Assembly (NCBI GenBank): GCA_903813345.2
Contig: CAIIXF020000003.1
Location: 2,322,109 to 2,386,108, forward strand
Source: Owenia fusiformis
Lineage: Eukaryota; Annelida; Polychaeta; Sabellida; Oweniidae
Direction of reading: 5' to 3'
Length of the DNA stretch: 64,000 nt
Part shown: piece by piece, positions 11,501-44,631 of the stretch
Layout of the letters: every line of letters begins with the position of its first letter
Position numbering within the stretch: the stretch's first letter is position 1
Notes under the pieces: generated by a model
Seen by the model: the letters and a program-made list of their open reading frames with translations, nothing else
The model's database searches: none
What the model was told of the DNA's origin: nothing
Program-made: the position numbers and the translations under genes

Positions 11501-13153
11501 GTATTTACACCTCAAGGGTCAATAGAACCAAATGTATCAATATACTTCAAAAACTCAAAACTTGAAGTAGTACCTCAAACTAAAGTGCTCGGCGTCACTA
11601 TAGATAACAAATTAAAGTTCATCTCGCACATAGAGGAAAGGCAAAGGAAGGGCTTCGGGGCTCTTAAACGTATTGCTGACTTTGCGAATGCAAACATCGG
11701 TTGCAAACAAGAGACCTTTACTAAACTGTATAAATCTTTAGTCAGGCCCAACCTGGAATACGGCAGCAGTGTGATAGCCACATCCACAACCAAAGCAGCA
11801 GAAGCCTACAACTCGGTTCAAAGACAGGCACTTCTCAAAGCAACTGGCTGTCTGCACTCAACCAGTACAGAAACGCTAGAGGCGATCACAAATTGTGTGC
11901 CCATCTATACGTTGCTCCGAGCAAGACAAGCTCAAGAACACATCAGAATTCTTATGAAACATGAATCTGAACCGATTCTAGCAGAATTCAAACTCTGGAA
12001 AGCTAATCGCAAACCAGAGAAATGTGTCTCTAATTTTAACATACTGCTATCTAGGACACGGGAATTTGGTAAATCCCTACTCCAAACGCCTCTGGACAAA
12101 GCGTACTCAAATTCAGACTGGTGTCCTTTCTCACCTCTCGGAATACAACTTGACCTTGAAGACTTCACAAGCTCAAAGAGCGCCCAAACTACAAGAATTC
12201 AACAGATTCTACAGAAGATCCCAGTTGATGACACAGTGGTCTTCACGGATGGATCCACACTTGGCAATCCGGGCCCCACTGGATCAGCAGCAATAGTCTA
12301 CGTGGAAGGTCTTGCAGCTGACCCGGTTTGTTTAAATAAACCCATCTCAGCAAAAGGCAACAACTTTATAGCTGAAATTTATGCTTTACTGTTAGGTCTA
12401 GACTTCATACAGGAAATAAACACCAGCCAAAATATATGGCTATTCTGTGATTGCCAACCTGCAATAACCTCTGCTTTTATCTCTGAACACCCAGAAGGTC
12501 ATGTTGAACTGATAAAAAAGATTCGACAACTGTGTGTTAAGATCAAAGATCAAAACAAATGTATAAACTGTCACTGGGTCCCAGGTCATGTAAATATCCA
12601 TGGCAATGAATTAGCAGATAAACACGCAAAAAAAGCAACTAGTTTGGCAGAACAACTTGAGTTTAACACAACCTCTGTTACAAAAAGTGAGGCTTATAAT
12701 GTAGTTCACAAATCCATTAAAAACAAATGGCAAAGGCAATACTCCAACTCTAAAAAAGTTCGGGCCATACAACAGGTTATCACAAAGATTGGATCCAACA
12801 ACCCCCCAGAATCTTCCAATCGCAAGATATCCTGTATTGTCAACCAACTAATTAGTGGACATACCCAACTCAATAGCCACCAAGCCAAAATCAACCCAAA
12901 CATTACATCAAATCTCTGTGAGTACTGCAATAAACCAGAAACTGTCGACCACTATATTAATACATGTGGTCTCTTTGAGCTGGAAAGACAAGAGCTCTAC
13001 TCGAAAGTTGACAATATACTCCTAGGAGAAAATACAAATCCACTACTGGATCTACAGACTCTAAGTGGTCGTAACATAAACCTGTCACAATCAACAAACA
13101 GGACAATATTTCATGCCTTTTGCAATTACATTAGGCAAACCAGGAGATTTTAA
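8476..13153 (+). pseudogene. LINE ORF2: endonuclease-reverse transcriptase-RNase H, split by an 831-bp insertion
   Basis: The start MKINQANVRSIN opens an exonuclease/endonuclease/phosphatase domain with LTEIW, CSAYIPPDD and GDFNAKHMMWG. The frame is cut at 8977 by the element 8978-9808 and resumes in the same frame at 9809 with DTSIIDLTIC and TDHKLI, the rest of the endonuclease. The RT domain follows (GIPQGAVISPTLCNLY; catalytic YADD at 11360-11371). RNase H follows (FTDGST at 12242; AEIYALLLGLD; DCQPA; HWVPGHVNIHGNELAD). A C-terminal CEYCNKPETVDHYINTC zinc-knuckle-like motif ends the protein. All catalytic residues I can check are present. The later segment, 9800-13153, is one uninterrupted frame. 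Confidence 0.88.
8978..9808 (+). mobile_element. 831-bp TTAA-target DNA element, copy 1 (inside LINE ORF2)
   Basis: It is flanked by TTAA at 8974-8977 and 9809-9812. Removing the element plus one TTAA restores an unbroken LINE reading frame, which proves both borders. Ends are AGTCCCCGTCTAAAGTTT and, inverted, AGGCCCCATGTAAAGTTT. There is no long open frame, so it is non-autonomous. TTAA duplication is used by piggyBac and Kolobok elements; which one is undecided from these ends. The second copy at 57690-58520 is in the opposite orientation and of exactly the same length. Confidence 0.9.
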
Positions 13154-13910: not shown

Positions 13911-14035
13911 ATGGCGGGTGTTGTGAAAGCAGTATTTCTGTTTTGTCTCCAGGTTTCTTTAGTTTTTTGTCGTAGCAATAGTGTCAGTGGAGGCTGCTAC
14001 GATCCAAAATATGACGAAGGTATTAAAGGAGTGAA
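13911..14035 (+). CDS. Cathepsin X/Z exon 1: signal peptide and propeptide start
   Basis: Starts at ATG 13911 with a hydrophobic leader ([14 protein letters not shown]) and then the short propeptide containing GGCYDP. In this family the propeptide Cys covalently caps the active-site Cys. The exon ends after two bases of a codon, before gtaagt at 14036. This ATG is chosen because it gives a proper signal peptide. Confidence 0.9.
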
Positions 14036-17000
14036 GTAAGTATAAATGAATAGTTTATGATACGTCTTCCTGATGATTTTTCTCAGCTTCTGTTTTTCAG
14101 GTTTCGAATTCGATTGTTGTTTCACGAATTTCTATAGTCTCTATACAATTCACAAGTTTCTGTGTCACTTGAACATAATCAAGCACCCCAGGGCTGACTT
14201 CTGCAGCTGTCAGCTCGGTAGAGTAAATTCTACAATCTCACTCGAACATAATCACTCATATCAAAGTTGGTGATGTAACAAGTATTATTGGAGACTGGGT
14301 CAAAAATGATGGGTAGAGTTTACTTCGGTCCAAAGCCTTCTCTATATTCCGGCTTTGAGTAGAAGATTGAGCTGCCTTGGTACTATGAATATTGTCCAGA
14401 ACCAGAACCGGAAGCCATTTTTCGCTACAGCGAGAAAATGTCACCATGTGTCAAACTCCGAAATGAAATTTTGAAATATCTAAATCCAGACAAGCAACGC
14501 TTCATCCTAAATATAATTAATATTCTTAAAAATATTTATTAAATTTAAAAAAAATGAGTACTAGGTGCGTGTAGGTGCGTGTAGCACCTTTTCTAGAGTA
14601 CATACGAAATCAATGAAGTTACGTCTAGCTGTAAGCTAGAGACTCAAGTAAGGTAGAGTCTACCTTCTTCTTAGGCCACTGTATCGTGGCCTTCCTGGAA
14701 AGATAATTTCCTGCATGAACAATTGGTCATGTCGTAATCATAAAATTTGAAATCATATGTCCGCCATTTTTCCACATCACAATTTAATTGCGAGTTTTGG
14801 TCTTATTACCTCACCAAAAATTCCAAAACACACATGAAGTGATCAATGTATTAGTTCACATCTTCTGGATCGCTAACTTAGAATTTACAGCCAGTTACTA
14901 ATGTCAGACGTTAACAACATTTCGTCCAGTTTTCAAATATCGCCATTTTTCTTGGAGCCATTTTGTTTTAATTTTAGACGAAATCTTGTCATATTTCATC
15001 AAGGAGTTCAGTCGGTTCCGATTTGATTTATGATTTATTTATCTGGCGATTTTTAAAATATTCAATAAATTTATGACACTCCGACCAGCTTTTTTCAAAT
15101 GGAGTTCACAGTATTCCAGACCTCTAGCCAATTATTGGCTAGAGACTCGAGTAAGGTAGACTCTACCCATCATTTCTGACCCAGTCTCCAATAATACTTG
15201 TTACATCATCAACTTTGATATGAGTGATTATGTTCAAGTGAGATCGTAGAGTTTACTCTACCGAGCTGACAGAAGTCAGCCCTGGGGTGCTTGATTGAAA
15301 ATTCTTTGAAGAGAAAAAATCGAGCCCAGTTTGACTAAACGCTGTGCTGAGTAGCGTTTAAAATACACTATACATTTGAATCAATAGATCTACATAATTT
15401 TTTATTTGTTGTTACATTATTATGATCCTTCAACAGTCTGTTGTTGTAGTAAATCAATGTTCTATAGACAACAAATCTTTTGAATTTAGATTGTAGCCAT
15501 TTTAGGTCTCGCGAGATCTCTTGACTTTTGAAAGTAAATAGTTGTTACAAAATAACTCAGACTAGCTAAATATGAATAGTCACGTGATCTTTTAGCGGCA
15601 ATGCCCATGGGCATGTAAAATACAATGCGCATGTGCATGCATGCGCAAAAGTTAAAAAATGATGCGAATCAGCTCTGGAATTTCTCCACTTAAACTGCAA
15701 ATTACACAACAAGTAGGCCTTATTGTCACCAGGCGTCATGAAAAGGGCAAGTTACCGTTAAATTATTCCAGCGCGCCTGCTGGAAGTTGGAGAAAATCAC
15801 TTCACATGATGGTATATTTGAACGGCCCGTCAGCTGGCTTTTGAGCCAGCTGTGTTCAGTAAGGTAGAGTCATGGGCATTCAATAGATATTTTAGTATTT
15901 TAGTTCAAAAAGGGTAGGCTGGGCACACACATACTGTTTAACCAGTGTATTCCTTCAGTCATATGTAATGCCTTAATGGATCAAGATGAGGCACCATAAT
16001 TTATGGTTGTCACTGTCAGATTTTATTTCCAGCAATCATGGATTGCACCAAGTATATCCAACTTATTGAGTTGTGGAATCATTGGATCAATGTTGCTATA
16101 TTATTACCTTTGACCAGTTTATCCCCGTTCTTTACACCTAAATTACATACCTCAATACATTCTTGAACTCTAAATGATACTTTTCAGTTGATCAAAAACC
16201 CATTATCGTCTTGGTTTATCACCAAAACAATGAAATCTTCATTTTTGATAGCAGCATTTTTGTGCAATATTAAACTTATTTCAACCGTCAAGTTCCATCA
16301 GTACATTCTATCCCGGCATGCACCAGTCATAATGGGAATTCCCTACTAAATCCAACGGCCATTTTGAAAGTGATGGAATATCTATCGATGAAAAAGCTAA
16401 ATGACCTTGTTCTACCAATGCAACCAAGACGATAATAGGTTTGACCACCTGAAAAGCATTCTGAGGTATGTAATTTCGGCGTACAGAAAGATGACAAAGT
16501 GGTTAGAGGTAAAAAATAGCAACATTGATCCAATGATCCCACGGCTATAAGTTGTAGACCTTAATAATATCCAACGATTATAATCTAGTCCCAAGACCAA
16601 GAAGTTTTAGTCTTGCGTGCATACATGTACAAAAGGAACCTATAGATGTTATGTTTCAAATAATGAAAAATTAGGGTACTAGCCAAGCACATAATCCTTA
16701 ACTCAATGAATTCCAACCACCGCCTGAAACATTCTCCCAAAGGCATAAACGTTGCGGCCGTCACAGAATGCAGTAATATGCATTTCAATCTTTAAATCAG
16801 CCAGTATTTCAAAATGTTCCTTAGCATTACCCTTTCAAGTTTCATTTATGTATTCTATTATAGGATCCAACTCCAACTGTCCCCAGTACCAATCATCTCA
16901 CTGGAAAATTAAATCGCTAGATTTATAGATTGACCAATCACAGACATCACTCAGTGTTTTCTATATTTTTTCAAATAAATGCCTCAAATCCAGATGACAG

Positions 17001-20000
17001 ATGTCATCCTTTCAAGTTTAATTCATGTATTTCTTTTCTAGGACATACCCACGTCCACATGAGTATATGAGTTCAAGCTCTCTGCCAAAGAACTGGGATT
17101 GGAGAAATGTTAACGGAACAAACTTTGCAAGTACAACAAGAAATCAACATATACCCCAATGTAAGTTGTAACTAATTTTACTACACCTCAATATAGTTTT
17201 GTCTCAGTCAGTGTGTAAAATAACTTTTTTCATGTTTTTAAATCTCTTGCCAAACTGGGCGTGGCCACTGTCAGTGTTTCGTTATAAATCATTGTACTCG
17301 TTGTACATTGTTGCCTCATTGTTTTTAAACCCCAAGTGAGTGTTATTTTGCCTCATATTAATGCATTGTTATACCCAAATTTAAATTCTACCTCAATGTT
17401 TGATGTCTCATGCATCCCTAAAGGAAAACATGATATCCTTTCATCTCGATTTTTTCATGCATTGGACCCTCCAGCACAAGGAAAAATGCATGGATAAACC
17501 AACATCATTGAGAGTTATTCCTGAATTGGAGGGTAACATTTTTGTGTCACCCTGTACATTGATTAAAAATAAGAAACATCAATTTTTGATTTATTTTAGA
17601 TTGTGGATCTTGTTGGGGCATGGGGACCACCAGCGCCCTCGCAGACAGAATCAACATCAAACGCAAGGCAGCCTGGCCCTCTGCCTACCTCTCTGTACAG
17701 AACGTCATAGACTGCGGCAATGCGGGAAGCTGTGAAGGTGGGGGTCAATTAGGGGTTTACGAATATGCACACAAGAAAGGAATCCCTGATGAAACGTGTA
17801 ACAACTACCAGGCAAAGGATCAGAGTAAGTGAACGGATTGAAAGGAAAAAAATCATATGATTGAACTTTTACCACATCCTACCTGAAAACCAATTTATAC
17901 CCTTTTGAAAAAGATAAAAGTCATGAAAATTTTGAATTTTGAAAATGAAAATTATGCACTGATTAGAGAAGAAAGTCATAGAAAAAATCTAATACTGTCC
18001 CTTATTTTACAGAATGCAATGAATTTGATTAATGTGGAACCTGCACTACATTTGGCAAGTGCCACACCATTGCCAACTACACCTAAAACATTTCAAGCTA
18101 GCCCTTATTTTACAGAGTGCAATGAATTTGACCAATGTGGAACCTGCACTACATTTTGCAAGTGCCACACTATCATGACTATTGCCAACTACACCTAAAA
18201 CATTTCAAGCTATCCCTTATTTTACAGAATGCAATGAATTTGACCAATGTGGAACCTGCACTACATTTGGCAAGTGCCACACCATTGCCAACTACACCTA
18301 AAACATTTCAAGCTATCCCTTATTTTACAGAATGCAATGAATTTGACTAATGTGGAACCTGCACTACATTTGGCAAGTGCCACACTATTGCCAACTACAC
18401 CTAAAACACTTCATGCTATCTCTTATTTTACAGAATGCAATGAATTTGACCAATGTGTAACCTGCACTACATTTGGCAAGTTCCACACTATTGCCAACTA
18501 CACCTAAAACACTTCATGCTATCCCTTATTTTACAGAATGCAATGAATTTGACCAATGTGGAACCTGCACTACATTTGGCAAGTGCCACACCATTGCTAA
18601 CTACACCTAAAACACTTCATGCTATCCCTTATTTTACAGAATGCAATGAATTTGACCAATGTGGAACCTGCACTGCATTTGGCAAGTGCCACACAATTGC
18701 TAACTACACCTAAAACACTTCATGCTATCCCTTATTTTACAGAATGCAATGAATTTGACCAATGTGGAACCTGCACTACATTTGGCAAGTGCCACACTAT
18801 TGCTAACTACACACTTTGGAAGGTTGGTGATTACGGTTCCGTCAGTGGCAGAGACAAAATGATGGCCGAAATCTACAAAAATGGGCCAATAAGGTATGAG
18901 ATGTTCCCTTCCAAAGAAAAATGTTAATGAGCCAATCAGTAGTAATTTAAAAGTACAATAAGATAGGATAATATGAAACCTTAGTGATAAAACATTATTT
19001 AACTCATGAATTTAATTAAATAAAATGATATGATATTACATATTTACTATGTTAGGGGCCAGATCGATATTTTTCTTTTGTCTCAAAAATAATTGAATTT
19101 CTCTGCACAAAAAATTTCACATTCTTTGAACATTTTTTGAAATCAAAGTTTCATTCAATAAAAAATTGTTTTCGACTTTTTACCCCTCTTTCGAACACTA
19201 CTGATCTGGTGCCTAAATGTTATTGTTAACATTTTTTGTTTTATATAACTTGTATTGCTTTATACAGGGTGTCAAATAAATATGTTCTCCCCTTTAATTT
19301 CAAGAGAATGAACTTTTGTGCATAAATGTACATTTAGTTGAGCTAGTCATCTCAAACCTTGTTTTGGTGTTCTGAGTACAATTCAGATATCACGTAGACA
19401 AAAAAGTTATGCAACATTACGTGGATGTTAAAGATAAGGAGGGGAGAAAATATTTATTTGACACCCTGTACATAGAGAGTTGCAAAGCACCGATTTAGTA
19501 CTATTTCCACATCAACAGCACTGAATTATATTTTTCACTTAATTTACACATTTGCTTTGTCCACTGTAGTTACACCCTATATCCCCTAGTAATGCTTAAT
19601 GTGATAGTTAACGCCTTATCCCCTTATACTGCAATACTTACGCCCTATATCTCCTTTATATGATATTTTACCCGAAATCTCCTTTTATTGTGATACTTAT
19701 GCCCTATATCACCTCGATGTGATATTTTACCCCCAAATCTCCTTTTAATGTGATACTTATGCCCTATATCACATCATAATGTGATAATTAAGCGCTATTT
19801 ATATCACCTTCAAATTGTGCATTTTCCATTCCTGCTTCACCCTACCTCCCCATGCACCAGTTGTGGAGTTAAGTGGACTGAAGCCTTTGAGATTTACTCT
19901 GGTGGGATTTTCCATGATTACCACCCATTTGTAAGGGTATGTGTAGATTAGGCTCCATTGCATGTAATATTTTTGGTCATTTTTGTTCTTAATTGACATG

Positions 20001-20470
20001 CATGTATTCTCTTCTTTCCTCACTTTTTCACATTCATATATTTTTATAAGCATGTTCATTTACCCCCCCCCTCTTTGCCACACATACATACATGTTCACT
20101 AGCGTGTTCATAATAGTCCACTCCATGTAAAATTTTCATTCATTTTCTATTTACATTAATGTTTTCTCATTTACTCCCCTCCCTCTTTCACACATATAAA
20201 GTTGACAAGCATGTTTATTCACTCCCATTTTTTCACATACAAAATATTCACAAGCATGTTTATTAAATGTCACCGCATGTTATATTTTCAGTCATTAGCT
20301 CACATGGTGAGCTTTTGCAATCGCTTACTTGTCCGTCTGTCTGTCCGTCCGTCTGTCCGTCCGTCTGTCCGTCAACAATAGTGGCACGTTTTAAAACCTC
20401 TGTCGATAGGATTCCTGTTTTTATGTCCCCACCACATAGTGTGGGGCCATATTGTCGGCCTAGGCGCGTC

Positions 20471-20501
<31 letters not shown>

Positions 20502-23500
20502 CCGTCCGTACGTCCGGCAATTTTCTCCAAAACCGCTACAGATATCACCTTCAAATTTTCAGGGATAACTTATGAGTGCATACAGATGTGGATGAAAAAA
20601 AATTACCTCGATACTTACTTCCTGTCGGCCATTTTGAAGTCAAATGCTAAAATCCTTGTCTGCAAACTTTAAGAAAAACGGCTCCTCAGTTGCTTTTAAA
20701 ACTTTAATATCTTGTTCAGCTCACTTCATTCTAGATCTGATTAGGTTTTGGACCTGTTAGCTCAGTCATGTCAGCCATTTTAAATGTTTTAAGAAAAGTT
20801 AGCGCACGATAATTCTTTGTATCATATTGAATGGTGTTTTTCAGTTTTCATACTTTAACTTTTTAGTAGCTTTATCAATAATTTCAGGTGTACTTTGTTG
20901 TAAAAGCCTATGTTATTGTTAACAGTAGTTATATGTGATAATTTTGGAAAAAGAAATCAGCAAAAACTCATAATCACTTTTTTATTGTCGGCCATTTTGG
21001 ATTTTTCCGTCCTAAAATCTTGTCTGTAAAGTCTTGTCTACATGTTTTCAGGTGAACCGTTTGGTAGATCAATTTCAAATTTTCAGGGATGATTCTTAGT
21101 ATGAAAATCTAGATCTGATTAGTTGTTGGGCATTCTGGGTAAATGTCAAGGCAGCCATTTTGGATTTTCCGTCCTAAAATCTTGTCTGTAAAGTCTTGTC
21201 TACGCATTCCCAGGTGAACTGTTAGGTAGATCAATTTCAAATTTTCAGGGATGATTCTTAGTATAAAAATCTAGATCTGATTAGTTTTTGGGCATTCTGG
21301 GTAAATGTCAAGGCAGCCATTTTGGATTTTCCGTCCTAAAATCTTGTCTGTAAAGTCTTGTCTACGCATTTCCAGGTGAACCGTTTGGTAGATCAATTTG
21401 AAATTTTCAGGGATGATTCTTAGTATGAAAATCTAGATCTTCTTAGTTTTTTGGCATTCTGGATAAATGTCAAGGCAGCCATTTTGGATTTTCCGTCTTA
21501 AAATCTTGCCCGTAAAGTCTTGTCTACGCATTTTTAGCTGAACCGTTTGGTAGATCAATTTCAAATTTTCAGGGATGATTCTTAGTATAAAAATATAGAT
21601 CTGATTAGTTTTTGGGCATTCTGGGTAAATGTCAAGGCAGCCATTTTGGATTTTCCGTCCTAAAATCTTGTCTGTAAAGTCTTGTCTACGCATTTCCAGG
21701 TGAACCGTTTGGTAGATCAATTTGAAATTTTCAGGGATGATTCTTAGTATAAAAATCTAGATCTCATTAGTTTTTTGGCATTCTGGATAAATGTCAAGGC
21801 AGCCATTTTGGATTTTCCGTCTTAAAATCTTGCCCGTAAAGTCTTGTCTACGCATTTTTAGCTGAACCGTTTGGTAGATCAATTTCAAATTTTCAGGGAT
21901 GATTCTTAGTATAAAAATCTAGAACTGATTAGTTTTTGGGCATTCTGGGTAAATGTCAAGGCAGCCATTTTGGATTTTCCGTCCTAAAATCTTGTCTGTA
22001 AAGTCTTGTCTACGTATTTCCAGGTGAACCGTTTGGTAGATCAATTTGAAATTTTCAGGGATGATTCTTAGTATGAAAATCTAGATCTGCTTAGTTTTTT
22101 GGCATTCTGGATAAATGTCAAGGCAGCCATTTTGGATTTTCCGTCTTAAAATCTTGCCCGTAAAGTCTTGTCTACGCATTTTTAGCTGAACCGTTTGGTA
22201 GATCAATTTCAAATTTTCAGGGATGATTCTTAGTATGAAAATCTAGATCTGAATAGTTTTTTGGCATTCTGGATAAATGTCAAGGCAGCCATTTTGGATT
22301 TTCTGTCCTCAAATCTTGTCTGTAAAGTCTTGTTTACATGTTTTCTGGTTAACTGTGTGTCGGATCAATTTCAAATTTTCAGGGGTGGTTCTTAGTATGA
22401 AAATCTAGAACTGACTAATTCTTTGGCATTCTGGGTAAATTTTAAGGTGGCCATTTTGGATTTTCCGTCCTGAAATTTTGTCGGTAAAGTCTTGTCTACT
22501 CATTTTCAGGATAACCATTTGACGGGATCACCAATAGGTGGGGACATTTTGTACACATTTGTGTTCTTGTAAGTTATTTCTGTTCAACATCAATACAGAA
22601 AACTCCCCTATGACTCCTGGTTCAAAAGCTCGCCTGTTTTCAAAATGGCCGCCATTTTTGTCTCGCGAAATTCACTTTTGACTGGCACGTTTTAAAACCT
22701 CTGTCGATAGGATTCCTGTTTTAAGTTATTTCTGTTCAACATCAATACAGAAAACTCCACTATGACTCTTGGTTCAAAAGCTCGCCTATTTTCAAAATGG
22801 CCGCCATTTTTGTCTCGCGAAATTCACTTTTGACCCATTTCCTAATGTAGCTTTACAAATAATTTCAGGTGTCCTACATTGTAAAAATCTGTGTCAATGT
22901 AAAGAGTAGATATATGAAATAATTTTGTTACAAAAAATCAGCGAAAAATTATATCTATTTTTTTATTTTCAGCCATTTTAGTTAACATTGATTTGTCCAT
23001 CTGACTTGTGAAATCCACTTTTCCGTCAACAACAGTGGCACGTTTTAAAACCTCTGTCGATAGGATTCCTGTTTTAAGTTATTTCTGCTCAACATCAATA
23101 CAGAAAACTCCCTTATGACTCCTGGCTCAAAAGCTCGCCTATTTTCAAAATGGCCGCCATTTTTGTCTCGCAAAATTCACTTTTGACCTATTTCCTAGCT
23201 TTACAAATAATTTCAAGTGTCCTACATTGTAAAAATCCATGTCAATGTAAAGAGTAGATGTATGAAATAATTTTGTTACGAAAATTCAGCAAAAAATTAT
23301 ATCCATTTTTTTATTTTCAGCCATTTTAGTTAACATTGATTTGTCCATCTGTCTCGCAAAATCCACTTTTGGACCATTTGCTTTAAACCCTCTGTCGATG
23401 CGATTCCTGTTTTAAGTTAATTTTGTTCAACATCAATACAAAAAACTCTCCTATGACTCTTGGTTCAAAAGCTCGCCTATTTTCAAAATGGTCACCATTC

Positions 23501-26500
23501 TTGTCTCGCGAAATTCACTTTTGGCCCATTTCCTAGCTTTACAAATAATTTCAGCTGTCCTGCATTGTAAAAAGCCATGTCACTGTAAAGAGTAGTTGTA
23601 TGAAATAATTTTTTTGTTACAAAAAATCGGCAAAATATTATATCAGTTTTTTTTTTTCAGCCATTTTAGTTATTCCCGATTTAAAATAATTTTGTTCAAC
23701 ATCAATAAAGAAAAAAAAACTGTGACTCCTGCTTCAAAATCTCGCCTAATTTCAAAATGGCCACCATTTTTGTCTCGGGAAATTCACTTTTGGCCCATTT
23801 CCTAGCTTTACAAATAAGTTCAGGTGTCCTGCATTGTAAAAAGCCATGTCTTTGTAAAGAGTTGTTGTATGAAATAATTTTGTCACAAAAAATCTGCAAA
23901 AAATTATACCCGTCTTTTTTATTTTCACTTTTGAGCAACACCATGTGAGCCCAGTACCCACGGTACTAATTTTTATCTATTCACACTCATTCATTCTCAT
24001 TCAATCCTCTCTCACACTCATGCAAGTTTACAAGCATGATTATTAGACTTCACTGCATGTTATATTTTCAGTCATTTTCTATTTACACTCATTCATTCTC
24101 ATTCAATCCTCTCTTACACTCATGCAAGTTTACAAGCAGGATTATTAGACTTCACTGCATGTTATATTTTCAGTCATTTTCTATTTACACTCAATCATTC
24201 TCATTCAATCCTCTCTTACACTCATGCAAGTTTACAAGCATGATTATTAGACTTCATTGCATGTTATATTTTCAGTCATTTTCTATTTACACTGTACTCA
24301 ATCATTCTCATTCAATCCTCTCTTACACTCATGCAAGTTTACAAGCATGATTATTAGACTTCATTGCATGTAATATTTTCAGTCATTTTCTATTTACACT
24401 CATTCATTCTCATTCAATCCTCTCTCACACTCATGCAAGTTTACAAGCATGATTATTAGACTTCACTGCATGTAATATTTTCAGTCATTTTCTATTTACA
24501 CTCATTCATTCTCATTCAATCCTCTCTTACACTCGTGCAAGTTTACAAGCATGATTATTAGACTTCACTGCATGTTATATTTTCAGTCATTTTCTATTTA
24601 CACTCAATCATTTTCATTCAATCTTCTCTTACACTCATGCAAGTTTACAAACATGTTTATTGGAATCCACTGCATGTAATATTTTCACTCATCTTTATTC
24701 GTACATTTATTTATACTCATTTATTCTCGTTCACTCCCCTCTTTGACAAACATACCTATGCCTTATATCACCTCGTTAAGGGATATTTATACCAGCTTCA
24801 CACTTGCTTTTTACCTACATTTTGCTTTTTTCCATACCTTCACTTAACCTCCTCTACTGACACCAGTTGTGGAGTTGATGCCACTGATACCTTTGAGCTT
24901 TACAATGGCGGGATTTACAAGGAATACAAGCTATTTATAGGGGTAAGTTTAAATAAGACTCCATCGCATGTTCTCTTCCGTACATGTTCACAAGCATGTC
25001 CACCCTCTTTGTATGCACACACATGAAGGGTTTAATTAGCAGCAGGCAACAGGTGATTTTCACTGGTTGTTTTCACAAAATCGCCTGTTTTAAGGAATTT
25101 TCAACTTTTCCATGTAAATTGTATATGATTTCCATTAATTTTGCCTGTTGTTTTCATTTATTTAGCCTGTTGTGAGAAATTCTAGTGAATCCTCTGAACA
25201 CAAACACATTCATGTTAAAACAATGTATCAATAGGGCCTCAGTCTAATATTCTAAGTTTATATGCAACATAGTGTAAAACGTCTCAAACAAAAAACATGC
25301 TGAACTTTGAATGTAAGACCTATCTTCACCTGAAATACTGAATAATCAATTACATGTACTTGAAAACACTTACATTCCACAATAGAGACACTTAAATAAC
25401 ACTTAATATATGAAGATTGTTATCTCTAAACAATACTAGTAGAAGTGGGACTACTTATATATGTGAATCACATTCATGTCATTACATTTCAAAGCACATA
25501 AAGCTAATTTAAACTAACCAACCTGTCCAACGTCCATGCATTGTGATATATCAAATTAAAGCATACTTGAAAATATATGTAACCCTCGTGCCAGTTTTTT
25601 CAAGCTTCACTTATTTTCGATTATCTGCAAAATGTGTTTGTGATATATCAAATTAAAGGTAGTAATGCACCTCACATTAGCATGCATGGCTTTGTACTTC
25701 AAGCATTTTTGAATAATGCAGAAAATACTCATTTTGCATGATGCTTGGGTAGTGATATATCAAATTAAAGTTCATAAAGCACCTCACATTAGCATGCATT
25801 ACAAAAACAAGAGCACTAGAATAATTCATAAAGTCCATCAACTGCATGGGGTATTTGTAGCACATTGTTATATAACAAAGGAAAGCACACCAGATGCATG
25901 TTGCTCTTAAAGACAGACCACCATATGATTATTGCAGTTGCATTACATCTATTCTGATGTAAAATTGTACAACATATGAAAGGCTGTTCTAAAAGTAATC
26001 CTTTTACAATGTTATGTACCAAATGAAAGCTGTGGAATAGATGCAACACCTGCATTGGAGGATTACACAGGAGGCGTTTATAAAGAAATGAAACTTCAAA
26101 TCGGAGTGAGTGAGTGTGTAGCATACATATGGCGTTATGTGCTGGAAGGTTTTGGATACAGGGTTTATCCCAAAGGAAATACTGTGTTCTCTTTAATATA
26201 TGCACATACTCTAATAAACATACACCCTGATTTTACAAGATAATTCATCTAGAAATATCTTTTACCTTTTCCCACAAACATACATACATTCCTTTATTAA
26301 GCCCAGAAGCCTTTAAATTTTGACTGGGATATTGCAATAATTTCCAAAAAGGTAGCCTGTTGCTTGAAGGAACATTCAATATTTTCATTGATATTGTGTC
26401 GATTAGCCCATGAAAACATAATCCATCGATCAATAAATGCATGAGAAAAACATTGAGATATGACATTATGTTATCTAGTATGAGAAAGTCCAGTATGAAA

Positions 26501-29500
26501 GAGGAAAATCATGAAATACCCTATTATCGCCCATATATGAACGGCTCAAAAATCCCTGGGATTCGTAATTTTAAGACATCACCTCCAGAATTTAGGAGAC
26601 GCACTGTGCGTTTATTAGAGAGAATGTGGTACATTTTTTCCCAACTGACTGTAGGGACTGAGGGATATACACATATTTTCATAGGTATCCAAAACAGACC
26701 AAACATAACAGCTGTATCTCCTGCCTACTGTCAGGGGTTTCATTAGCAGCAGGCAACAGGTGATTTTCACTGGTTGTTTTCACAAAATTGCCTGTTGTTT
26801 TTAGGGACTTTTCAACTTTTCTTTGTTAAATTAATGATTTCCATTAATTTTGCCTGTTGTTTTCATTTATTTAGTCTGTTGTGAGAAATTCTAGTGAAAT
26901 CCCTGACTGTGGTTCCTGAAACATTCAACCATCAAAGATTTTCATATACATACACATATACATATTTTTTGTGAATATTTGTAAAATCCTTTTAAAGAGT
27001 GAAAAGTTTTCAAATTAATTGTTAATTTTTCCAAGGTAAACTATATATTCCTACTAGTCATATACCTAGAACCACATATATTGGCCAATGTAATATCATA
27101 TTGGCCAATGTAATATCATATTGGCCAATGTAATATCATATTGGCCAATGTAATATCATATTGACAGCAAAACTGGAGAAAAACTGGCAATAGATGATAA
27201 AGTTGAATATGGATGAATTAATAATCAGATATCCATCAGAGTTTTTTTTATTTATTTTTTTTACATGGTACATTCCATAAACCAAACATTTGTATTCTTT
27301 ACTTGCCAATCACAATATGGCATTACAAGTCAAGGTTTAAGGTAACATGGTTCATTGTATTTGATAAAGAACAGCACCTTGCACTTTATGGCTGTTGAGG
27401 ACAAGGGTAGTCCTTTTCCAACAGGGTTCGGTTTTTAAAAAATCCAAGGATAGGTTCAAATTTGACAATTTTGGCTCAGAATTACTTGAAAAGTGCTCAA
27501 CATCATGAAAACTGTATGATTTTGATAGAATTTTTGGCCAGTAGTGGGTTTGCTTTAGCCTACTGTAATAAAACATCATTAAGTAAAGATACAGGACTAA
27601 ATAGAGTAATCGAATACACACACACACATTAAAAAAAACATAGCGCTTGTGTTTCTGATATTAGTCTTAAACCAATATCATTTCCAAACTTCTATCAAAA
27701 TAATTTGATGATTTTGTGGCTTATTGTGCGCATATTCTCCTGACCTACAAGGTCATTCTGTGTTGGCATTATTCCCCCAAATCCCCCTTCCCCCAGATAT
27801 AACATTGGGAACAGAGGACTATTCCACAAAACCCCCCTTCCCCCAGATATTTCATCGGTACCAGAGGACTATTTCCCTAAATCCCCCTTCCCCCAGATAT
27901 TTCATTGGTACCAGAGGACTATTTCCCTAAACCCCCCTTCCCCCAGATTTTTCATTGGTACCAGAGGACGATTTCCCTAAGTCCCACTCCACCCTTTTCT
28001 CGATATTTTTATGTCCCCACCACATAGTGTGGGGCCATATTGTCAGCCTAGGCGCGTCCGTCTGTCTGTCCGTCCGTCTGAATGAAGAAACCAATGCAGC
28101 AACAACAAATGATGTCCGTCCGTCTGTCCATACGTCCGGCAGTTTTCTCCAAAACCGCTACAGATATCACCTTCAAATTTTCAGGGATAACTTATGAGTG
28201 CATATAAATGTGGATGAATAAAAATTAGCTCGATAGCTACTTCCTGTCGGCCATTTTGAAGTCAAATGCTAAAATCCTTGTCTGCAAACTTTAAGGAAAA
28301 CGGCTTTACAGTTGCTTTTAAAACTTTAACATCTTGTTCAGCTCACTTCATTCTAGATCTGATTAGGTTTTGGACCTGTTAGCTCAGTCATGTCAGCCAT
28401 TTTGAATGTTTGAAGAAAAGTTAGCGCACGATAATACTTTGTATCATATTGAATGGTGTTTTTCAGTTTTCATACTTTAACTATTTAGTAGCTTTATAAA
28501 TAATTTCAGGTGTACTTTGTTGTAAAAGCCTATGTTATTGTTAACAGTAGTTATATGTGATAATTTTGTAAAAAGAAATCAGCAAAAACTCATAATCACT
28601 TTTTTATTGTCGGCCATTTTGGATTTTTCTGTCCTAAAATCTTGTCAGTAAAGTCTTGTCTACGCGTTTTCAGGTGAACCGTTTGGTAGATCAATTTCAA
28701 ATTTTCAGGGATGATTCTTAGTTTGAAAATCTAGATCTGATTAGTTTTTGGGCATTCTGGGTAAATGTCAAGGCAGCCATTTTGGATTTTCCGTCCTAAA
28801 ATCTTGTCTGTAAAGTCTTGTCTATGCATTTCCAGGTGAACCGTTTGGTAGATCAATTTCAAATTTTCAGGGATGATTCTTAGTATGAAAATCTAGATCT
28901 GATCAGTTTTTGGGCATTCTGGGTAAATGTCAAGGCAGCCATTTTGGATTTTCCATCCTAAAATCTTGTCTTTAAAGTCTTGTCTACGCATTTCCAGGTG
29001 AACCGTTTGGTAGATCAATTTCAAATTTTCAGGGATGATTCTTAGTATGAAAATCTATATCTGATTAGTTTTTGGGCATTCTGGGTAAATGTCAAGGCAG
29101 CTATTTTGGATTTTCCGTCCTAAAATCTTGTCTGTAAAGTCTTGTCTACGCATTTCCAGGTGAACCATTTGGTAGATCAATTTTAAATTTTCAGGGATGA
29201 TTCTTAGTATGAAAATCTAGATCTGATTAGTTTTTGGGCATTCTGGGTAAATGTCAAGGCAGCCATTTTGGATTTTCCGTCCTAAAATCTTGTCTGTAAA
29301 GTCTTGTCTAAGCATTTCCAGGTGAACCGTTTGGTAGATCAATTTCAAATTTTCAGGGATGATTCTTAGTATGAAAATCTGGAACAGATTAGTTTTTTGG
29401 CATTCTGGATAAATGTCAAGGCAGCCATTTTGGATTTTCTGTCCTCAAATCTTGTCTATAAAGTTTTGTTTACATGTTTTCTGGTTAACTGTGTGACGGA

Positions 29501-31946
29501 TCAATTTCAAATTTTCAGGGGTGGTTCTTAGTATGAAAATCTGACTGAACTGACTTATTTTTGGCATTCTGGGTAAATTTTATGGTGGCCATTTTGGATT
29601 TTCCGTCCTCAAATTGTGTCGGTAAAGTCTTGTCTACTCATTTTTAGGATAACCATTTGACGGGATCATCCATAGGTGGGGACATTTTGTACACATTTGT
29701 GTTCTTGTTTTGGTATTGCTATGGTCCTAGAATGAAGGAGGTGTATGAAATACATTATTTTCCTAAATCCATCCCCACTCCATCTCCCCAATATGTCATT
29801 GATGGTGCTATGGAACTGAATCCATCTCCACTCCATCTCCCAAATATGTCATAGATGGTGTTATGGTACTGAATCCATCCCCACTCCATCTCCCCAATAT
29901 GTTAATTATTGATGGTGCTATGGTACTGAATCCATCCCCACTCCATCTCCCCAATATGTCATTGATGGTGTTATGGTACTAAAAATGTTAATGCCTCTGA
30001 AAATCAATATATTTATTTGTTTCAACTTGTGATTGCTTTAAAGTTGTGGCATTGAGGCCACTCCAGGTTTGGAGGTGTACAAAGGTGGGATCTATATGGA
30101 AGAAAAGGCTGAGGCTTTTGTAAGTCAAACATTTTAGCTCCCCCTCCCAATAAAATCAAAATTGAATATTTTCAATCTCCTCTTTATTAGGTTATTGTTT
30201 TTATGTCACCACCAGTTATAGTCTCTAACTTTTTTCTGGGTGGTGTTAGGTGGTCAGTGCTCCTAGTCTGTAGAAAATGGCAGGTGGTGACATTTGGCAA
30301 GTTAATGCCTTGTTATATTAGTTTACAAGCAATGAAGTGGAGAGCCTTGGTTTAAGGCATAATGTCCCCCATCTTGATCTATTTTGGTATTACACGTGTG
30401 TATGACTAAAGGAACACACTGATTTAACAGTATTTGATAAAAAAAAGTATGGAATGGAAGTATTTACTTCTCTTTTCTACCTTATTCAAAGATTCCATGG
30501 AGTTTCATCTCAATATCTATGAAAAATTTGGGAACTTCCGAAATGAAAAGTTTGGGAGCTTCGGAACACTTCAAGTTATTATACAATGTAGATTTCATAC
30601 GTTACTCAAAAGGTTAAAATAAGCAAGAAAAGGGTAATTTAAATTCAAAAATATCTGTAAGTACCTCAATTTGTTTATACCAAGGGTGATATATGGATCT
30701 TGTAAAATAATATTCACCATGTATTTGTCTTTGAATGACTGTTAAAAATAATGATCCATAAAATGTATACCTTTTCATATGTATTAGATGATTAAATGTT
30801 TACTTAATAAAAGACCACGTGTTGTATGGCAATTGATTTTAGAGAGTCATATCTTTCAACATGAGTACTTTCTGGCCATAAATACAATGGCTTTTATAAA
30901 AACAATATGTTTTCTTTCAAATGAAGTCCCCATGAGTGTAAAATATCAATCCAACTCTCTGAAAGATTATGGATTAAAAAGAGGATCTTGTTTTTCTCAA
31001 TTTAAACATATCGAAAGTCTCCTCTACACTATATTAACAATTTCCGAAAAGGGGGTGGGTATTGAAATGAGTTAAAGTTAAAAAACAAATATCCCATGTT
31101 ATTTTCCCATAGGGAAAACTGAAATCGAAAATTGATATCTTCAAAAGTAGACTTTCAATACCATTCTTTTTTTAAACATCCCTTAGACCCCTTGTTGAAT
31201 AATGTTTTCATGCAATAAAATTCAGAAAAAGAAGATCCTCTTTTGAGTAAATAAGCTCAATATTTTGAAAAAAAAAGTTGACATGGGGTCCGTATTCATA
31301 ATTTTTCGAATTGTTTGACTTATATTTTTATCATCATGGGTACTTCACTTGAAAGAAAACATATTGTTTTAATGAAAACTACTGTATTTATGCCCAGAAC
31401 GTACTCAGGGTGAAAGATATGACCGTCTAAAATCACTTGCCATACTGCACGTGGTCCTTTAATTTAATGTTATTTAATGTTGCAATTGTTTCAGATCAAC
31501 CATATAATATCAGTAGCTGGATGGGGAGTTGATCCTACTAGCGGAGTGGAATACTGGATTGGACGCAACTCATGGGGACAACCGTGGGTAAGTTGAATGA
31601 CCGTACATGGATCCTCATCGTTTGGGACTTTATCCACTTCTTGGGTCCAAAAGTTGTTTTTTTTATTTTGTGAAAATATCTGTCGACAATGTCATAAAGG
31701 AGTTGAAAATTCATCCTCTATGAAATCCAAATGATTTAATGCCAATATAATCTGTTGATAAAAAAAGAACAAACCGCCAAAATGTAATGTCACTTTATGA
31801 TATGTAATGCCAAATTTTGATTTGTGTTACAGGGAGAATCGGGCTGGTTCCGTATTGTCACCAGTATGTACAAGGGAGGTGAAGGAGACCATTACAATCT
31901 TGGTATTGAGAAGTCATGTGCCTATGCTGACCCAATCCTGCCCTAG
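13911..31946 (+). CDS. Cathepsin X/Z (papain-family lysosomal carboxypeptidase), complete gene with alternative exon 5
   Basis: Seven exons: 13911-14035, 17042-17160, 17600-17824, 18743-18893, one of four exon-5 versions (19861-19936, 24867-24942, 26030-26105, 30044-30119), 31495-31587, 31833-31946. All have matching phases and GT-AG borders. The spliced length is 903 nt with any single exon 5, so 300 residues, close to the family's usual length. Visible hallmarks are a signal peptide (residues 1-20), a short propeptide with the family's single Cys (GGCYDP), TYPRPHEY, the cathepsin X 'HIP' mini-loop in RNQHIPQY, CGSCW with the catalytic Cys, [17 protein letters not shown] with the catalytic His, and RNSWG with the catalytic Asn. 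The family removes single C-terminal residues in lysosomes or outside cells. Residues after CGSCW are GMGTT rather than the common A-[HF]-[AG]-ST, which is odd. A possible poly(A) signal is at 32764. No other protease family carries the HIP loop, so the call is secure. Confidence 0.95.
14178..15295. mobile_element. 1.1-kb element with ~150-bp terminal inverted repeats, in cathepsin intron 1
   Basis: The left end ATCAAGCACCCCAGGGCTGA reappears inverted at 15276-15295. Similarity continues through the 'ggtagagt', 'tatcaaagttggtgatgtaa' and 'ttggagactgggtc' segments of both arms. The interior has no coding region. Target duplication is not clear. It is a non-autonomous foldback-type DNA element. 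Confidence 0.75.
16059..16554. mobile_element. Foldback element, relative of 56929-57468, in intron 1
   Basis: The left arm (from CAACTTATT) and right arm (ending ATAAGTTG) are diverged inverted copies. Both carry ATCATTGGATCAATGTTGCT and 'ttacatacctca'. The right arm includes a segment ('catcgat...attccatcactttcaaaatgg' when inverted) shared with the element at 56929-57468, so they are one family. No coding capacity. Confidence 0.65.
17042..17160 (+). CDS. Cathepsin X/Z exon 2: propeptide end and mature N terminus
   Basis: It lies between ttttctag and gtaagt. It encodes [10 protein letters not shown], then [12 protein letters not shown], the start of the mature enzyme, and ends in the HIP mini-loop (RNQHIPQ), the insertion that gives cathepsin X its carboxymonopeptidase behaviour. 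Phase 2 in, phase 1 out. Confidence 0.95.
17600..17824 (+). CDS. Cathepsin X/Z exon 3: catalytic Cys
   Basis: It is flanked by ttattttag and gtaagt. It carries CGSCW with the nucleophile, [27 protein letters not shown] and [15 protein letters not shown], all strongly typical of cathepsin X. Right after CGSCW the chain reads GMGTT; papain-family enzymes nearly always have Ala there on the active-site helix, so this is a notable substitution. Ends phase 1. Confidence 0.95.
18013..18742 (+). repeat. Seven partial copies of cathepsin exon 4, 103-bp tandem repeat with repeated 3' splice sites
   Basis: Seven units (starts 18013, 18116, 18228, 18331, 18434, 18537, 18640) precede the real exon at 18743. 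All are 103 bp except the second, which has a 9-bp insertion (112 bp). Each unit is an acceptor (cccttattttacag), about 70 bp of exon 4 (TGC AAT GAA TTT GAC ... AAC TAC ACC) and a short link. In each, the exon frame ends at a TAA: just after NYT in most units, and earlier in units 1 and 4. No unit has a donor. Splicing exon 3 to any unit acceptor gives a truncated protein; only the last acceptor is productive. Confidence 0.92.
18743..18893 (+). CDS. Cathepsin X/Z exon 4: productive copy
   Basis: This is the last and only full copy of the tandem series. It begins at the eighth ttttacag acceptor and continues past the point where the others stop, through [20 protein letters not shown] to NGPI, ending at AG|gtatga. 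It encodes [10 protein letters not shown] and the segment before the exon-5 junction. Phase 1 in, phase 2 out. Confidence 0.95.
19265..19468. mobile_element. 204-bp mariner-type MITE
   Basis: TA-flanked (19263-19264, 19469-19470) with inverted ends CAGGGTGTCAAATAAATAT, the 'AGGGTGT' start being typical of Tc1/mariner-derived elements. It has no coding region. It lies in the intron between exon 4 and exon 5a. Confidence 0.8.
19560..19800. repeat. Degenerate minisatellite before exon 5a
   Basis: About four imperfect units of roughly 60-70 bp built on 'tgtgatacttatgccctatatcacc...gatattttacccc.aaatctcctttt'. Related sequence ('ccttatatcacctcgttaaggg') also precedes exon 5b. The intron flank was therefore duplicated with the exon. 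Confidence 0.6.
19861..19936 (+). CDS. Cathepsin X/Z alternative exon 5a
   Basis: A 76-nt open cassette between caccag and gtatgt. It completes the Ser codon of exon 4 and encodes [17 protein letters not shown] and eight further residues, in frame with exon 6. It keeps the conserved Cys-Gly and the GGI core but departs from the other versions at 'KWTEA' (others 'DAT' or 'EAT'). Length is exactly that of 5b-5d when the second of two adjacent possible donors (gtaagg, gtatgt) is used. Its upstream flank resembles that of 5b. It is the most diverged copy and might be rarely used. Confidence 0.75.
20297..23950 (+). mobile_element. Large non-autonomous repeat element 'B' with TTAGCTCACATGGTGAGC end
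   Basis: It begins AGCTCACATGGTGAGCTTTTGC, then TCCG/TCTG runs, and ends CACCATGTGAGC in inverted form. The body has several diverged units of about 300-400 bp with 'tctgtcgataggattcctgtttt', 'caaaatggccgccatttttg' and 'gaaataattttgttac'. The element is split by element A at 20422-22569; the uninterrupted form of the target is seen in its other units (for example near 22700). It interrupts a unit of the minisatellite that continues at about 23960. A partial inverse copy is at about 60430-61242. No coding capacity is seen. Confidence 0.7.
20422..22569 (+). mobile_element. Non-autonomous element 'A', long copy, nested in B
   Basis: Starts TATGTCCCCACCACATAGTG, then 'tgtggggccatattgtcggcctaggcgcgtccgtc', and ends GGTGGGGACATTTTGTACAC plus 'atttgtgttcttg'. 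The middle is a tandem array of about nine units with a period near 162 bp, each with 'ccattttggattttccgtcc', 'cttgtctgtaaagtcttgtcta' and 'gatcaatttcaaattttcaggg'. The 1.7-kb copy at 28010-29709 has the same ends and fewer units. No open reading frame. Confidence 0.75.
23960..24700 (+). repeat. Minisatellite, ~100-bp units, before exon 5b
   Basis: About seven units of roughly 100 bp, each with 'tcatgcaagtttacaagcatgattattagacttcactgcatg', 'tatattttcagtcattttc' and 'tacactcattcattctcattcaatcctctc'. Diverged units also flank exon 5a (19950-20290), so this array and the exon duplicates spread together. Each unit holds a weak acceptor-like 'tatattttcag'. Confidence 0.8.
24867..24942 (+). CDS. 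Cathepsin X/Z alternative exon 5b
   Basis: A 76-nt open cassette between tctactgacaccag and gtaagt, the best-formed splice sites of the four. It encodes [20 protein letters not shown] plus five residues, then joins [11 protein letters not shown] of exon 6. Spacing from GGIY to the catalytic His equals that in known cathepsin X. It is probably the default or ancestral version, though this is inference. Confidence 0.88.
25026..25195 (+). mobile_element. ~170-bp repeat element, copy 1
   Basis: Contains 'ttagcagcaggcaacaggtgattttcactgg', 'gatttccattaattttgcctgttgttttcatttatttag' and 'gagaaattctagtgaa'. A direct copy with clear inverted ends is at 26730-26907. Confidence 0.7.
26030..26105 (+). 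CDS. Cathepsin X/Z alternative exon 5c
   Basis: A 76-nt open cassette, [18 protein letters not shown] and then KEMKLQIG, in frame with exons 4 and 6. The donor is good (gtgagt). The acceptor is weak (accaaatgaaag, with a short pyrimidine tract about 25 bases upstream). That fits a regulated exon or one needing an activator. The coding sequence shows no damage. Confidence 0.82.
26730..26907 (+). mobile_element. 178-bp MITE, copy 2
   Basis: Inverted ends GTCAGGGGTTTCATTA and (inverted) GTCAGGGATTTCACTA. The interior is shared with 25026-25195. No coding capacity. Confidence 0.7.
27080..27163 (+). repeat. 20-bp tandem repeat, four units, CCAAT-containing
   Basis: Four near-perfect units of TATTGGCCAATGTAATATCA. 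TTGGCCAATG contains back-to-back inverted CCAAT boxes (ATTGGCCAAT is palindromic). It lies in the intron between exons 5c and 5d. Confidence 0.85.
27735..27995 (+). repeat. Minisatellite, ~53-bp units
   Basis: Four to five units with 'cccccttcccccagatatttcattggtaccagaggactatttccctaa'. It lies directly before element A copy 2. Confidence 0.8.
28010..29709 (+). mobile_element. Element 'A', short copy
   Basis: Same ends as 20422-22569 (TATGTCCCCACCACATAGTG; GGTGGGGACATTTTGTACAC). The central array has about seven 162-bp units. The TCCG tract after the left end is interrupted by a CAA-rich insert. It lies in the intron between exons 5c and 5d. Confidence 0.75.
29755..29985 (+). repeat. Minisatellite, ~55-60-bp units
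   Basis: About four units of 'aatccatccccactccatctccccaatatgtcattgatggtgctatggtactg'. It immediately precedes exon 5d. Confidence 0.8.
30044..30119 (+). CDS. Cathepsin X/Z alternative exon 5d
   Basis: A 76-nt open cassette between gattgctttaaag and gtaagt. It encodes [20 protein letters not shown] plus KAEAF, in frame. It keeps the Cys-Gly-Ile, Ala-Thr and GGIY core, and differs in the last eight residues next to the catalytic His (acidic, EEKAEAF, against basic and hydrophobic in 5b and 5c). Being nearest exon 6, it could also be the default exon. Confidence 0.86.
30810..31460. mobile_element. ~650-bp foldback element in the last large intron
   Basis: The left arm from AAGACCACGTGTTGTATGGC and the right arm ending GCACGTGGTCCTT are inverted copies. 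Both contain 'gagtcatatctttca'-type and 'aaacatattgttttca'-type segments. It ends about 35 bases before exon 6. TTAA occurs near both borders, but the junctions are not exact. Confidence 0.65.
31495..31587 (+). CDS. Cathepsin X/Z exon 6: catalytic His and Asn
   Basis: It lies between gtttcag and gtaagt. It encodes [27 protein letters not shown]: His of INH and Asn of RNSWG are the remaining catalytic residues. Phase 0 in and out. All four exon-5 versions splice to it in frame. Confidence 0.96.
31833..31946 (+). CDS. Cathepsin X/Z exon 7: C terminus
   Basis: From tgttacag. It encodes [20 protein letters not shown] to the end CAYADPILP and TAG at 31944. The GDPI/ADPI end is typical of the family. 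The 3' UTR probably runs to an AATAAA at 32764-32769. Confidence 0.96.
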
Positions 31947-39999: not shown

Positions 40000-40021
40000 T
40001 TAAAACATCTATATAGCTTAC

Positions 40022-40178
40022 CTTGAATACCATGTGCTTGTCTTTTAAGTCGCAGTTTCATAGAAGTCGGGTCAGCGATTACTTTGTTTCCCTTTGCTTG
40101 TAGTTCTTTGACTTTCACTAACGATACATTGAAATGTCTTGATGCGTATTTGTGTCTACCACTGTCGGGGTCGATCAT
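40022..40178 (-). CDS. Unrecognised minus-strand gene, exon 1
   Basis: ATG at 40178 with an in-frame stop just upstream. It encodes MIDPDSGRHKYASRHFNVSL, then a Lys/Arg-rich stretch ending KLRLKRQAHGIQ and donor gtaagc. The composition (HKYASRHFNVSLVKVKELQAKG) is basic and looks like a DNA- or RNA-binding tail, but I recognise no domain. Exons 1-4 together give about 90 residues before the frameshift. Being inside the 13.3-kb element, it may be an element gene or a captured host gene. Confidence 0.65.
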
Positions 40179-41129
40179 ATGTTATACTAAAATTTTCAGT
40201 GATGTGATTGTTCAAACAATGGCAAAGAGAATTGCGTCAATTTCATCATCTTGTCTCGGGCAATAATAGCACATGTATTGAGCTGGAATTGATAAGTAAT
40301 ATACATTGACCAAAAAGGTTTTTACAACATTATATTCTGCATGACAATACTCGTATGCGAAATCATGGGCTTTCGATAGACAAACTTTGACTTTGATGGT
40401 AACCAGGTAACATAATCACGGGTAGTATCTAAAGCCCCGCTATGATTTAAAAATCGCGAGCAAGTTCCCGCTGAAATCGCGAGCATAGTCCTGTTTATTT
40501 GTATCACTTTGGAAAATGAACCAAAAGGATGAAAATACTTATTACCGTTCTTTGATACTCCAGCAAAACTTTGAAAACAGATTTATTTGACAAAAAATGA
40601 CATGAAAAATGATTATTTTTTACTTGCATGAAGGAAAGGGGCGTCAACATGCACGTTTGCATAATTTACTGTTCATATATTACCTTTATCGTTAAAATAA
40701 AGGCAATAAATACGATTTACATACTCCATAATAAATATCGGATCAAGATGGTCTGTATTGATAAGTTACTGGACAATGACACCTGCCATGGGGGTCGAAA
40801 TACACTATTAAAGGTGTTCCAGTGGCCCCGCCGAAAACATGAGGAGGCCCCGCTGAAAACATGAGGAGACCCCGCTGAAAACACGAGCAAATTTCACGAC
40901 TACCCGCTTCGATCACGAGGAAAGCTTCATCATTATTCCATGAATATAGTGAGCTTCTTTATATGAACGTACACGATAACGTATTAATGACAATCACATA
41001 ACATATCATTCTATGGCAACATTACAAATAATTTTTATATGTAAATATACTTTGTACATTTCGGAGTTAAATGTACATTCTACATAATTCACTATTCCAA
41101 GGATTAAACTTCTGAGGACACATATATTG

Positions 41130-41770: not shown

Positions 41771-41774
41771 AGAA

Positions 41775-44455: not shown

Positions 44456-44631
44456 ACAGGATATTGATATAGGAATAATATTCATAAACGTTATTCTGAC
44501 TAAATCATTTTAGGTTCACCTAAACGCACGCTTCTTACTGAATATCGACTTGTACTCAAAGATGGAACAGAGGGGACAGTTGAAATACAGAAAATACAGA
44601 ATATTTCCTATGGACTATGTAGTAAGATCAC

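Follow-up and report, generated by a model that had tools for sequence, protein, structure and literature searches.

In CYP4F3, ketohexokinase A/C and PKM, the choice between two mutually exclusive exons changes the kinetics of the enzyme or its substrate. As in the gene described here, exon choice in these proteins alters an active-site or regulatory segment, but none of them is a cathepsin and each offers two alternatives. The nearest parallel is found in the insect serpins, PpSerpin-1 (PMC10513286) and a further insect serpin gene, Manduca serpin-1, in which a constant scaffold is combined, as it would be here, with a choice of specificity-determining exons. According to the available text of the PpSerpin-1 report, nonsynonymous rates are higher in its alternative exons than in its constitutive ones. 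The serpin exon encodes the C-terminal bait loop of a protease inhibitor, whereas in the gene considered below the protease carries the choice, in one of its internal exons. For cysteine cathepsins, no report of mutually exclusive exons was found in the literature searched, most subscription journals lying outside it, and the statement of an earlier note on this DNA that none is known for cathepsin X/Z agrees with this search. In the accessible portion of a 2026 review of CTSZ (PMC13257197), neither the word start 'splic' nor 'isoform' appears (0 times each), and 'exon' appears a single time, in the legend to a figure.

The window, a stretch of 64,000 nucleotides from Owenia fusiformis, contains a complete seven-exon cathepsin X/Z gene at 13911-31946 on the plus strand, whose fifth exon is present in four versions (cassettes 5a to 5d). 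The introns have AG/GT borders, the exons form a single open frame once they are joined, and the product is a 300-aa preprocathepsin X/Z. The parts of the gene are as follows.

Exon 1, 13911..14035, plus strand: ATG, signal peptide and the beginning of the short propeptide (CYDPKYDEG), from the sequence and the joined frame.
Exon 2, 17042..17160, plus strand: end of the propeptide, TYPRPHEY..., beginning of the mature enzyme and the cathepsin X mini-loop HIPQ(Y), aligned to 1deu/1ef7.
Exon 3, 17600..17824, plus strand: catalytic Cys (YCGSCW), from the joined frame and the 1deu alignment.
Exon 4, 18743..18893, plus strand: ends in ...NGPI plus the AG of the shared Ser codon (...ATA AG, then the junction).
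Cassette 5a, 19861..19936, plus strand: (S) and 25 residues, Trp at the cathepsin B Val176 position, alternative in-frame donor at 19931.
Cassette 5b, 24867..24942, plus strand: (S) and 25 residues.
Cassette 5c, 26030..26105, plus strand: (S) and 25 residues.
Cassette 5d, 30044..30119, plus strand: (S) and 25 residues.
Exon 6, 31495..31587, plus strand: INH with the catalytic His, NSWG with the catalytic Asn, and the S1' Trp.
Exon 7, 31833..31946, plus strand: C terminus and stop codon TAG.

The identity of the gene, which the earlier note had given as cathepsin X/Z, is borne out by comparison with known structures. In the PDB, isoform b has its best match in human procathepsin X (1deu, E 4.5e-134), and it matches 1ef7 with E 3.9e-124. 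All four isoforms match Peptidase_C1 (PF00112), with E values from 5.9e-46 to 9.8e-48. The CGSCW, INH and RNSWG motifs of isoform b align to 1deu, the catalytic Cys, His and Asn thus being present, and the Cys and the GG of its cassette match procathepsin X in the same alignment. There, too, the mini-loop NQHIPQYCGSCW is identical to that of procathepsin X; the exact residues of the cathepsin X mini-loop before the catalytic Cys we take to be HIPQY. The Cys segment of the propeptide (11 residues) aligns at the sequence level with CYRPLRGDGLA of 1deu, and its Cys would tie to the active site. The family, the mini-loop and the catalytic residues are common to the Owenia gene and human cathepsin X/Z (CTSZ; 1deu, 1ef7), but the 1deu alignment shows YDE and KCN where the human enzyme has its RGD and ECD motifs. 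The available part of PMC13257197 treats the role of the mini-loop in cathepsin X and names the RGD and ECD motifs for human CTSZ; these motifs are not known as defining in invertebrates. By its sequence, the gene is a cathepsin X/Z of the papain family (C1A), with a predicted carboxypeptidase activity.

The remainder of the window holds several features of its own. An ORF at 4139-4912 (plus strand) looks by eye like a neuropeptide precursor: behind an EGF-like Cys motif it has nine repeats of the form WF(N/H)P(L/F)(M/L)R, of which most stand between K/R cleavage sites; the motif FNPLMR was not found in the literature searched. At 7255-13153 (plus strand), a zinc-knuckle ORF and a reverse transcriptase/RNase H-like ORF, with an interruption of about 0.8 kb near 9000-9800, form an element which by eye we take to be a non-LTR retrotransposon. 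A long purine-biased low-complexity array, open in several frames, extends over about 41000-44500 and has a GC skew of 0.40 and an AT skew of 0.37 over 40001-44000. Across the right edge of the window (C3:2386084-2386200, minus strand) runs a short and weak match centred on the NSWG motif. Similar weak matches, with about 41-55% identity over 22-40 residues, occur elsewhere on C3; these may be other papain-family exons or a repeat.

The four cassettes, at 19861, 24867, 26030 and 30044, had been described in the earlier note as exons of 76 nt that are open, AG/GT-flanked and of the same phase, and all of these properties were confirmed. Each cassette is preceded by AG and followed by GT, is open in the frame of exon 4, completes the Ser codon begun there and joins exon 6 in phase 0, also as claimed. 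The Ser codon is AGC in 5c and AGT in 5a, 5b and 5d. In 5a, a second possible in-frame donor (GTAAGG at 19931) lies 6 nt upstream of the first. Stretches rich in A are found just before the AG of 5c and 5d.

When a single cassette is spliced between exons 1-4 and exons 6-7, a 300-aa protein results in all four cases, and the other 12 of the 16 subsets (none, all pairs, all triples and all four) run into a premature stop. Four copies together restore the frame yet still stop. The stop is at codon 211 when no cassette is included and at codon 236 or 250 in the combinations. The exon lengths place the no-cassette stop 80 nt upstream of the last junction and the stops of the combinations farther upstream still. 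The usual rule for nonsense-mediated decay is a distance of 50 nt. As all of these stops are upstream of the last junction by more than 50 nt, the transcripts carrying them should be open to this decay. Single choice, which had been attributed to the frame, is on these computed transcripts enforced more firmly than by frame alone, as the stops come soon after the junctions.

A profile was made from the four cassettes and the human segment. The cassettes score 75.4-86.4, values that are high by construction because they are part of the profile; the highest score elsewhere in the 64 kb is 18.6, and 40 shuffled windows reach 20.4 at most. This profile scan of the 64-kb window thus gave neither a fifth cassette nor a decayed one.

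The cassettes are not equally distant from one another. The eight residues preceding the catalytic His had been said to differ greatly, which is true of the pairs a-c and a-d, with 0/8 identities each, and of a-b, b-d and c-d, with 2/8 each, but not of b-c, where 6/8 are identical. At the protein level 5a agrees with 5c, and likewise with 5d, in 8 of 25 residues. The nucleotide likeness of 5a is at the level of shuffled sequence for 5c (z -1.6), barely above it for 5d (z 2.4), and very pronounced for 5b (z 23.9).

The position of the cassette in the enzyme can be described by comparison with cathepsin B. The cathepsin B segment used agrees with the PDB over 40 residues, and the alignment of the cassette to it is ungapped all the way from GPI(S) to the catalytic His. 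The available text of PMC4220004 gives Phe174, Val176, Phe180, Leu181, Met196 and Trp221 as the cathepsin B pocket for large hydrophobic residues; we read this as the P1' pocket, since the text goes on to P2'. In what is accessible of two further papers, the S1' site of cathepsin B consists of Val176, Leu181, Met196, His199 and Trp221 (PMC12304826), and Val176, Leu181 and Trp221 lie together with Trp30 in a hydrophobic pocket (PMC8391575). Counting back from His199, positions 174, 176, 180, 181 and 196 fall in the cassette, which are five of the six P1' pocket residues. Their equivalents in human cathepsin X are Ile155, Ala157, Leu161, Ala162 and Tyr177, and the cassette as a whole corresponds to Cys153-Tyr177 in the mature numbering of 1ef7. 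The Trp221 equivalent and the His lie in the constant exon 6. The residues at 174/176/180/181/196 are V-W-F-E-R in 5a, V-A-F-E-G in 5b, I-A-L-E-G in 5c and I-A-L-E-F in 5d, so that one position is constant, two vary mildly and two vary strongly.

Cathepsin X is a strict carboxypeptidase according to the available text of PMC13257197, and its S1' pocket should therefore hold the C-terminal residue of the substrate. The alternative exon should supply most of the wall of this pocket, and the choice of exon likely changes the S1' specificity. As 5b and 5c agree in 6/8 of their final residues, three types of pocket are likelier than four. Cassette 5a is predicted to give a pocket narrowed by its Trp, and 5d one with a Phe at the rim. 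The pockets of 5b and 5c are predicted to be alike, and the main difference between these two cassettes would be the place or time of their splicing. The suggestion of the earlier note that splicing could switch specificity is sharpened by this alignment, in which the cassette covers five of the six cathepsin B P1' residues, but four specificities are too many.

Taken together, it is probable that mutually exclusive exons, with splicing predicted from the DNA, re-line the S1' pocket of a single cathepsin X/Z gene. In the mature transcript, a single cassette would link exon 4 with exon 6. Transcripts that contain none, or two or more, of the cassettes would encounter the computed early stop and would presumably be removed by nonsense-mediated decay. 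The cassette included would form the wall of the S1' pocket, by its ungapped homology to cathepsin B, and the C-terminal residues that the enzyme trims probably depend on this choice.

The means by which exclusion could be achieved were considered as well. Steric blocking is disfavoured by the spacings of the cassettes (4930, 1087 and 3938 nt), which are too long for it, and a U2/U12 mismatch by the donors, which look U2-type by eye. Docking and selector sequences were sought by scanning 220 nt on each side of the cassettes against 18894-19600 and 30360-31490, with six shuffles for each scan. Two of the four scans fell within their six shuffles and two beat all six, by 0.1 and 0.6 kcal/mol: the upstream regions paired with intron 4 at -16.8 (best shuffle -16.7) and the downstream regions with the last intron at -20.6 (best shuffle -20.0). 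These four scans around the cassettes yielded no convincing RNA-pairing element. Inverted repeats form 55 pairs in 18800-31600, and none of the 25 pairs inspected among these was recognised as a docking site. The stops that follow double or empty splices would serve as a backstop for the exclusive choice.

The introns of the gene contain a number of repeated structures. At 18013-18742, the real exon 4 is preceded by seven decayed tandem copies of its 3' splice site together with its first ~66 nt. These copies are 103-nt units, one of them longer, and each runs into a TAA codon (NYT, stop); intron 3 thus contains a series of decoy acceptors whose use would terminate translation. In the last intron, a 136-nt inverted repeat (30808-30943 and 31326-31461, 85% complementary) ends 33 nt before exon 6 and would form a long hairpin beside the splice site. 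One 162-nt satellite occupies 20991-22521 and 28613-29643 in two of the introns between cassettes, in both cases inside a larger repeated stretch.

The comparison of silent and replacement differences among the four copies, which the earlier note had proposed, divides the pairs. With rounded counts, a silent excess is found for b-c (pS 0.72 vs pN 0.26, Fisher p 0.001) and for c-d (pS 0.82 vs pN 0.29, Fisher p printed as 0.000), and it is not significant in the same test for b-d (p 0.28) or for the pairs with 5a (a-c 0.10, a-b 0.13, a-d 1.0). The excess of differences at third codon positions is significant for b-c (p 0.008), c-d (0.011) and a-c (0.033), and falls short of significance in the pairs b-d (p 0.059), a-d (0.135) and a-b (0.52). 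Among b, c and d, the 76-nt flanks on either side are unlike (z -0.5 to 1.8) and the exons are alike (z 10.7-12.7). As the silent excess of b-c and c-d occurs amid unlike introns, 5b, 5c and 5d look as if they are kept by selection, with a clear Fisher signal in these two of the six pairs.

The same results bear on a different reading, namely that the exons are truly mutually exclusive but that the choice between them tunes regulation, stability, dimer contact or localisation and not substrate preference. Cassettes 5b and 5c have nearly the same pocket residues as well as their near-identical segment before the His, yet the pair is under strong purifying selection, which is easiest to understand if their expression differs. 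This likeness speaks against specificity as the main purpose of the exon choice. In addition, the last eight residues of the cassette, where most pairs differ most, include one named pocket position, the final one. However, the Val176 equivalent is a Trp and the Met196 equivalent an Arg in 5a, and the latter is a Phe in 5d; such replacements are unlikely to be neutral for binding. We consider this reading rather unlikely.

Cassette 5a has a history of its own. A blastn match between 5a and 5b spans the exon and its flanks with 71% identity. The two are identical at 56/76 positions of the exon, at 73/107 to 82/103 positions of the upstream flank and at 23/29 positions downstream. Under three gap penalties, the alignment of the upstream flank, with 103-107 bases aligned, is broken by 4 to 10 runs of gaps, whereas the exon contains none at two of the penalties and two 1-nt gaps at the lowest; the 29 comparable bases downstream have no gap either. 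On this comparison, 5a is a younger duplicate of 5b with recognisable flanks, which changes fast and has kept its length and frame. A tandem duplication of exon 5 would thus have produced an old set (b, c and d), and a-b would be a later duplication. Between 5a and 5b there is no silent excess (pS 0.10, pN 0.32, p 0.13), and positive selection between them was rejected as not significant at the same p of 0.13. When 20 changes are simulated under neutrality, an open frame and replacements as conservative as those of the 5a-5b pair are kept in 7-11% of the runs (P 0.07-0.11). Cassette 5a may be maintained, as its frame, its length and its splice sites are intact, but this is less certain than for b, c and d. 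With no silent excess against 5b and as many differences as in the flanks, 5a alone of the four could be decaying.

It is unlikely that the cassettes are only partly in use, with 5b, 5c and 5d working and 5a a young decaying duplicate, or with one cassette dominating and the others rarely spliced. The comparison of 5a with 5b, in which purifying selection leaves no sign at the substitution level, would fit such a state, as would the W-T of 5a in place of the A-T found in 5b, 5c, 5d and the human enzyme. The A-rich stretches before 5c and 5d may also make weak acceptors of these two. However, 5a has kept its frame, its length and both splice sites next to an upstream flank broken by gaps, and several of its 13 replacements relative to 5b are conservative (E/D, I/L, F/Y, D/E, V/I).

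The assembly searched for further copies comprises 498,259,871 bases in 525 contigs; the searches are exon-wise and may miss weak matches. Of its 15 homeodomain matches at E 1e-12 or better, 11 are clustered on C1 at 17.97-18.47 Mb, all of them on the plus strand, one more is on C1 at 56.85 Mb, and three are on C2. The available text of PMC9977687 describes for O. fusiformis a compact Hox cluster on chromosome 1, with Post1 farther downstream on the chromosome, and the arrangement found here fits this species or a close relative. The full protein gave 32 matches at E 10 or better. Those at this locus are exons 1-4, 6 and 7, cassettes 5a, 5b and 5c, and the seven units of the exon-4 array (80-96% identity). 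The remaining 16, none of them over 58% identity, are other papain-family genes or chance. Cassette 5d is absent from this list, but the protein made with 5d has three genome matches, which are 5d, 5c and 5b of this gene. The human C-terminal part gave 22 matches, with 68 and 63% identity for exons 6 and 7 of this gene and 55% or less for all others, and the DNA of exons 6-7 has one genome match, its own locus. The 5c region has one full genome match and, with 40 of 436 candidates scored, at least 64 other, short matches to an adjacent repeat, which starts about 13 nt past the end of 5c (about 26119-26191) and often has a close inverted partner. By full protein, human C-terminal part and exon DNA, the 498-Mb assembly thus yielded this cathepsin Z gene and no other. 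It was the one eukaryotic genome searched for the cassettes. No relatives were found in viral_contigs, and none of 29 pattern matches in genome_contigs is a relative. An assembly artefact, in which tandem paralogous genes were collapsed or mis-joined so that their exon 5s merged into one gene, and which the earlier note had named as a refutation, is very improbable: the introns, rich in tandem arrays and repeats, are difficult to assemble, but in these searches none of exons 1-4, 6 and 7 turned up a second time in intact form, intact extra copies exist of exon 5 alone, the divergence among the cassettes is that of old paralogs although they share single flanking exons, and a mis-join would need the clean deletion of every other exon.

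A four-member cluster of mutually exclusive exons is thus the best reading of the DNA. More tentatively, and with a chance that we place a little below even, the choice among the four exons would produce carboxypeptidases with at least three S1' linings, and C-terminal trimming would be set by splicing, by tissue or by life stage. Developmental and adult transcriptomes of Owenia fusiformis exist, as stated in the available text of PMC9977687. Mutually exclusive exons are well known, and here the piece that is swapped would be most of one substrate pocket. If this is true, one gene would be a natural set of matched enzymes that differ only around S1', from which the rules of cathepsin X specificity could be read directly, and the gene of a lysosomal protease could be diversified by splicing.
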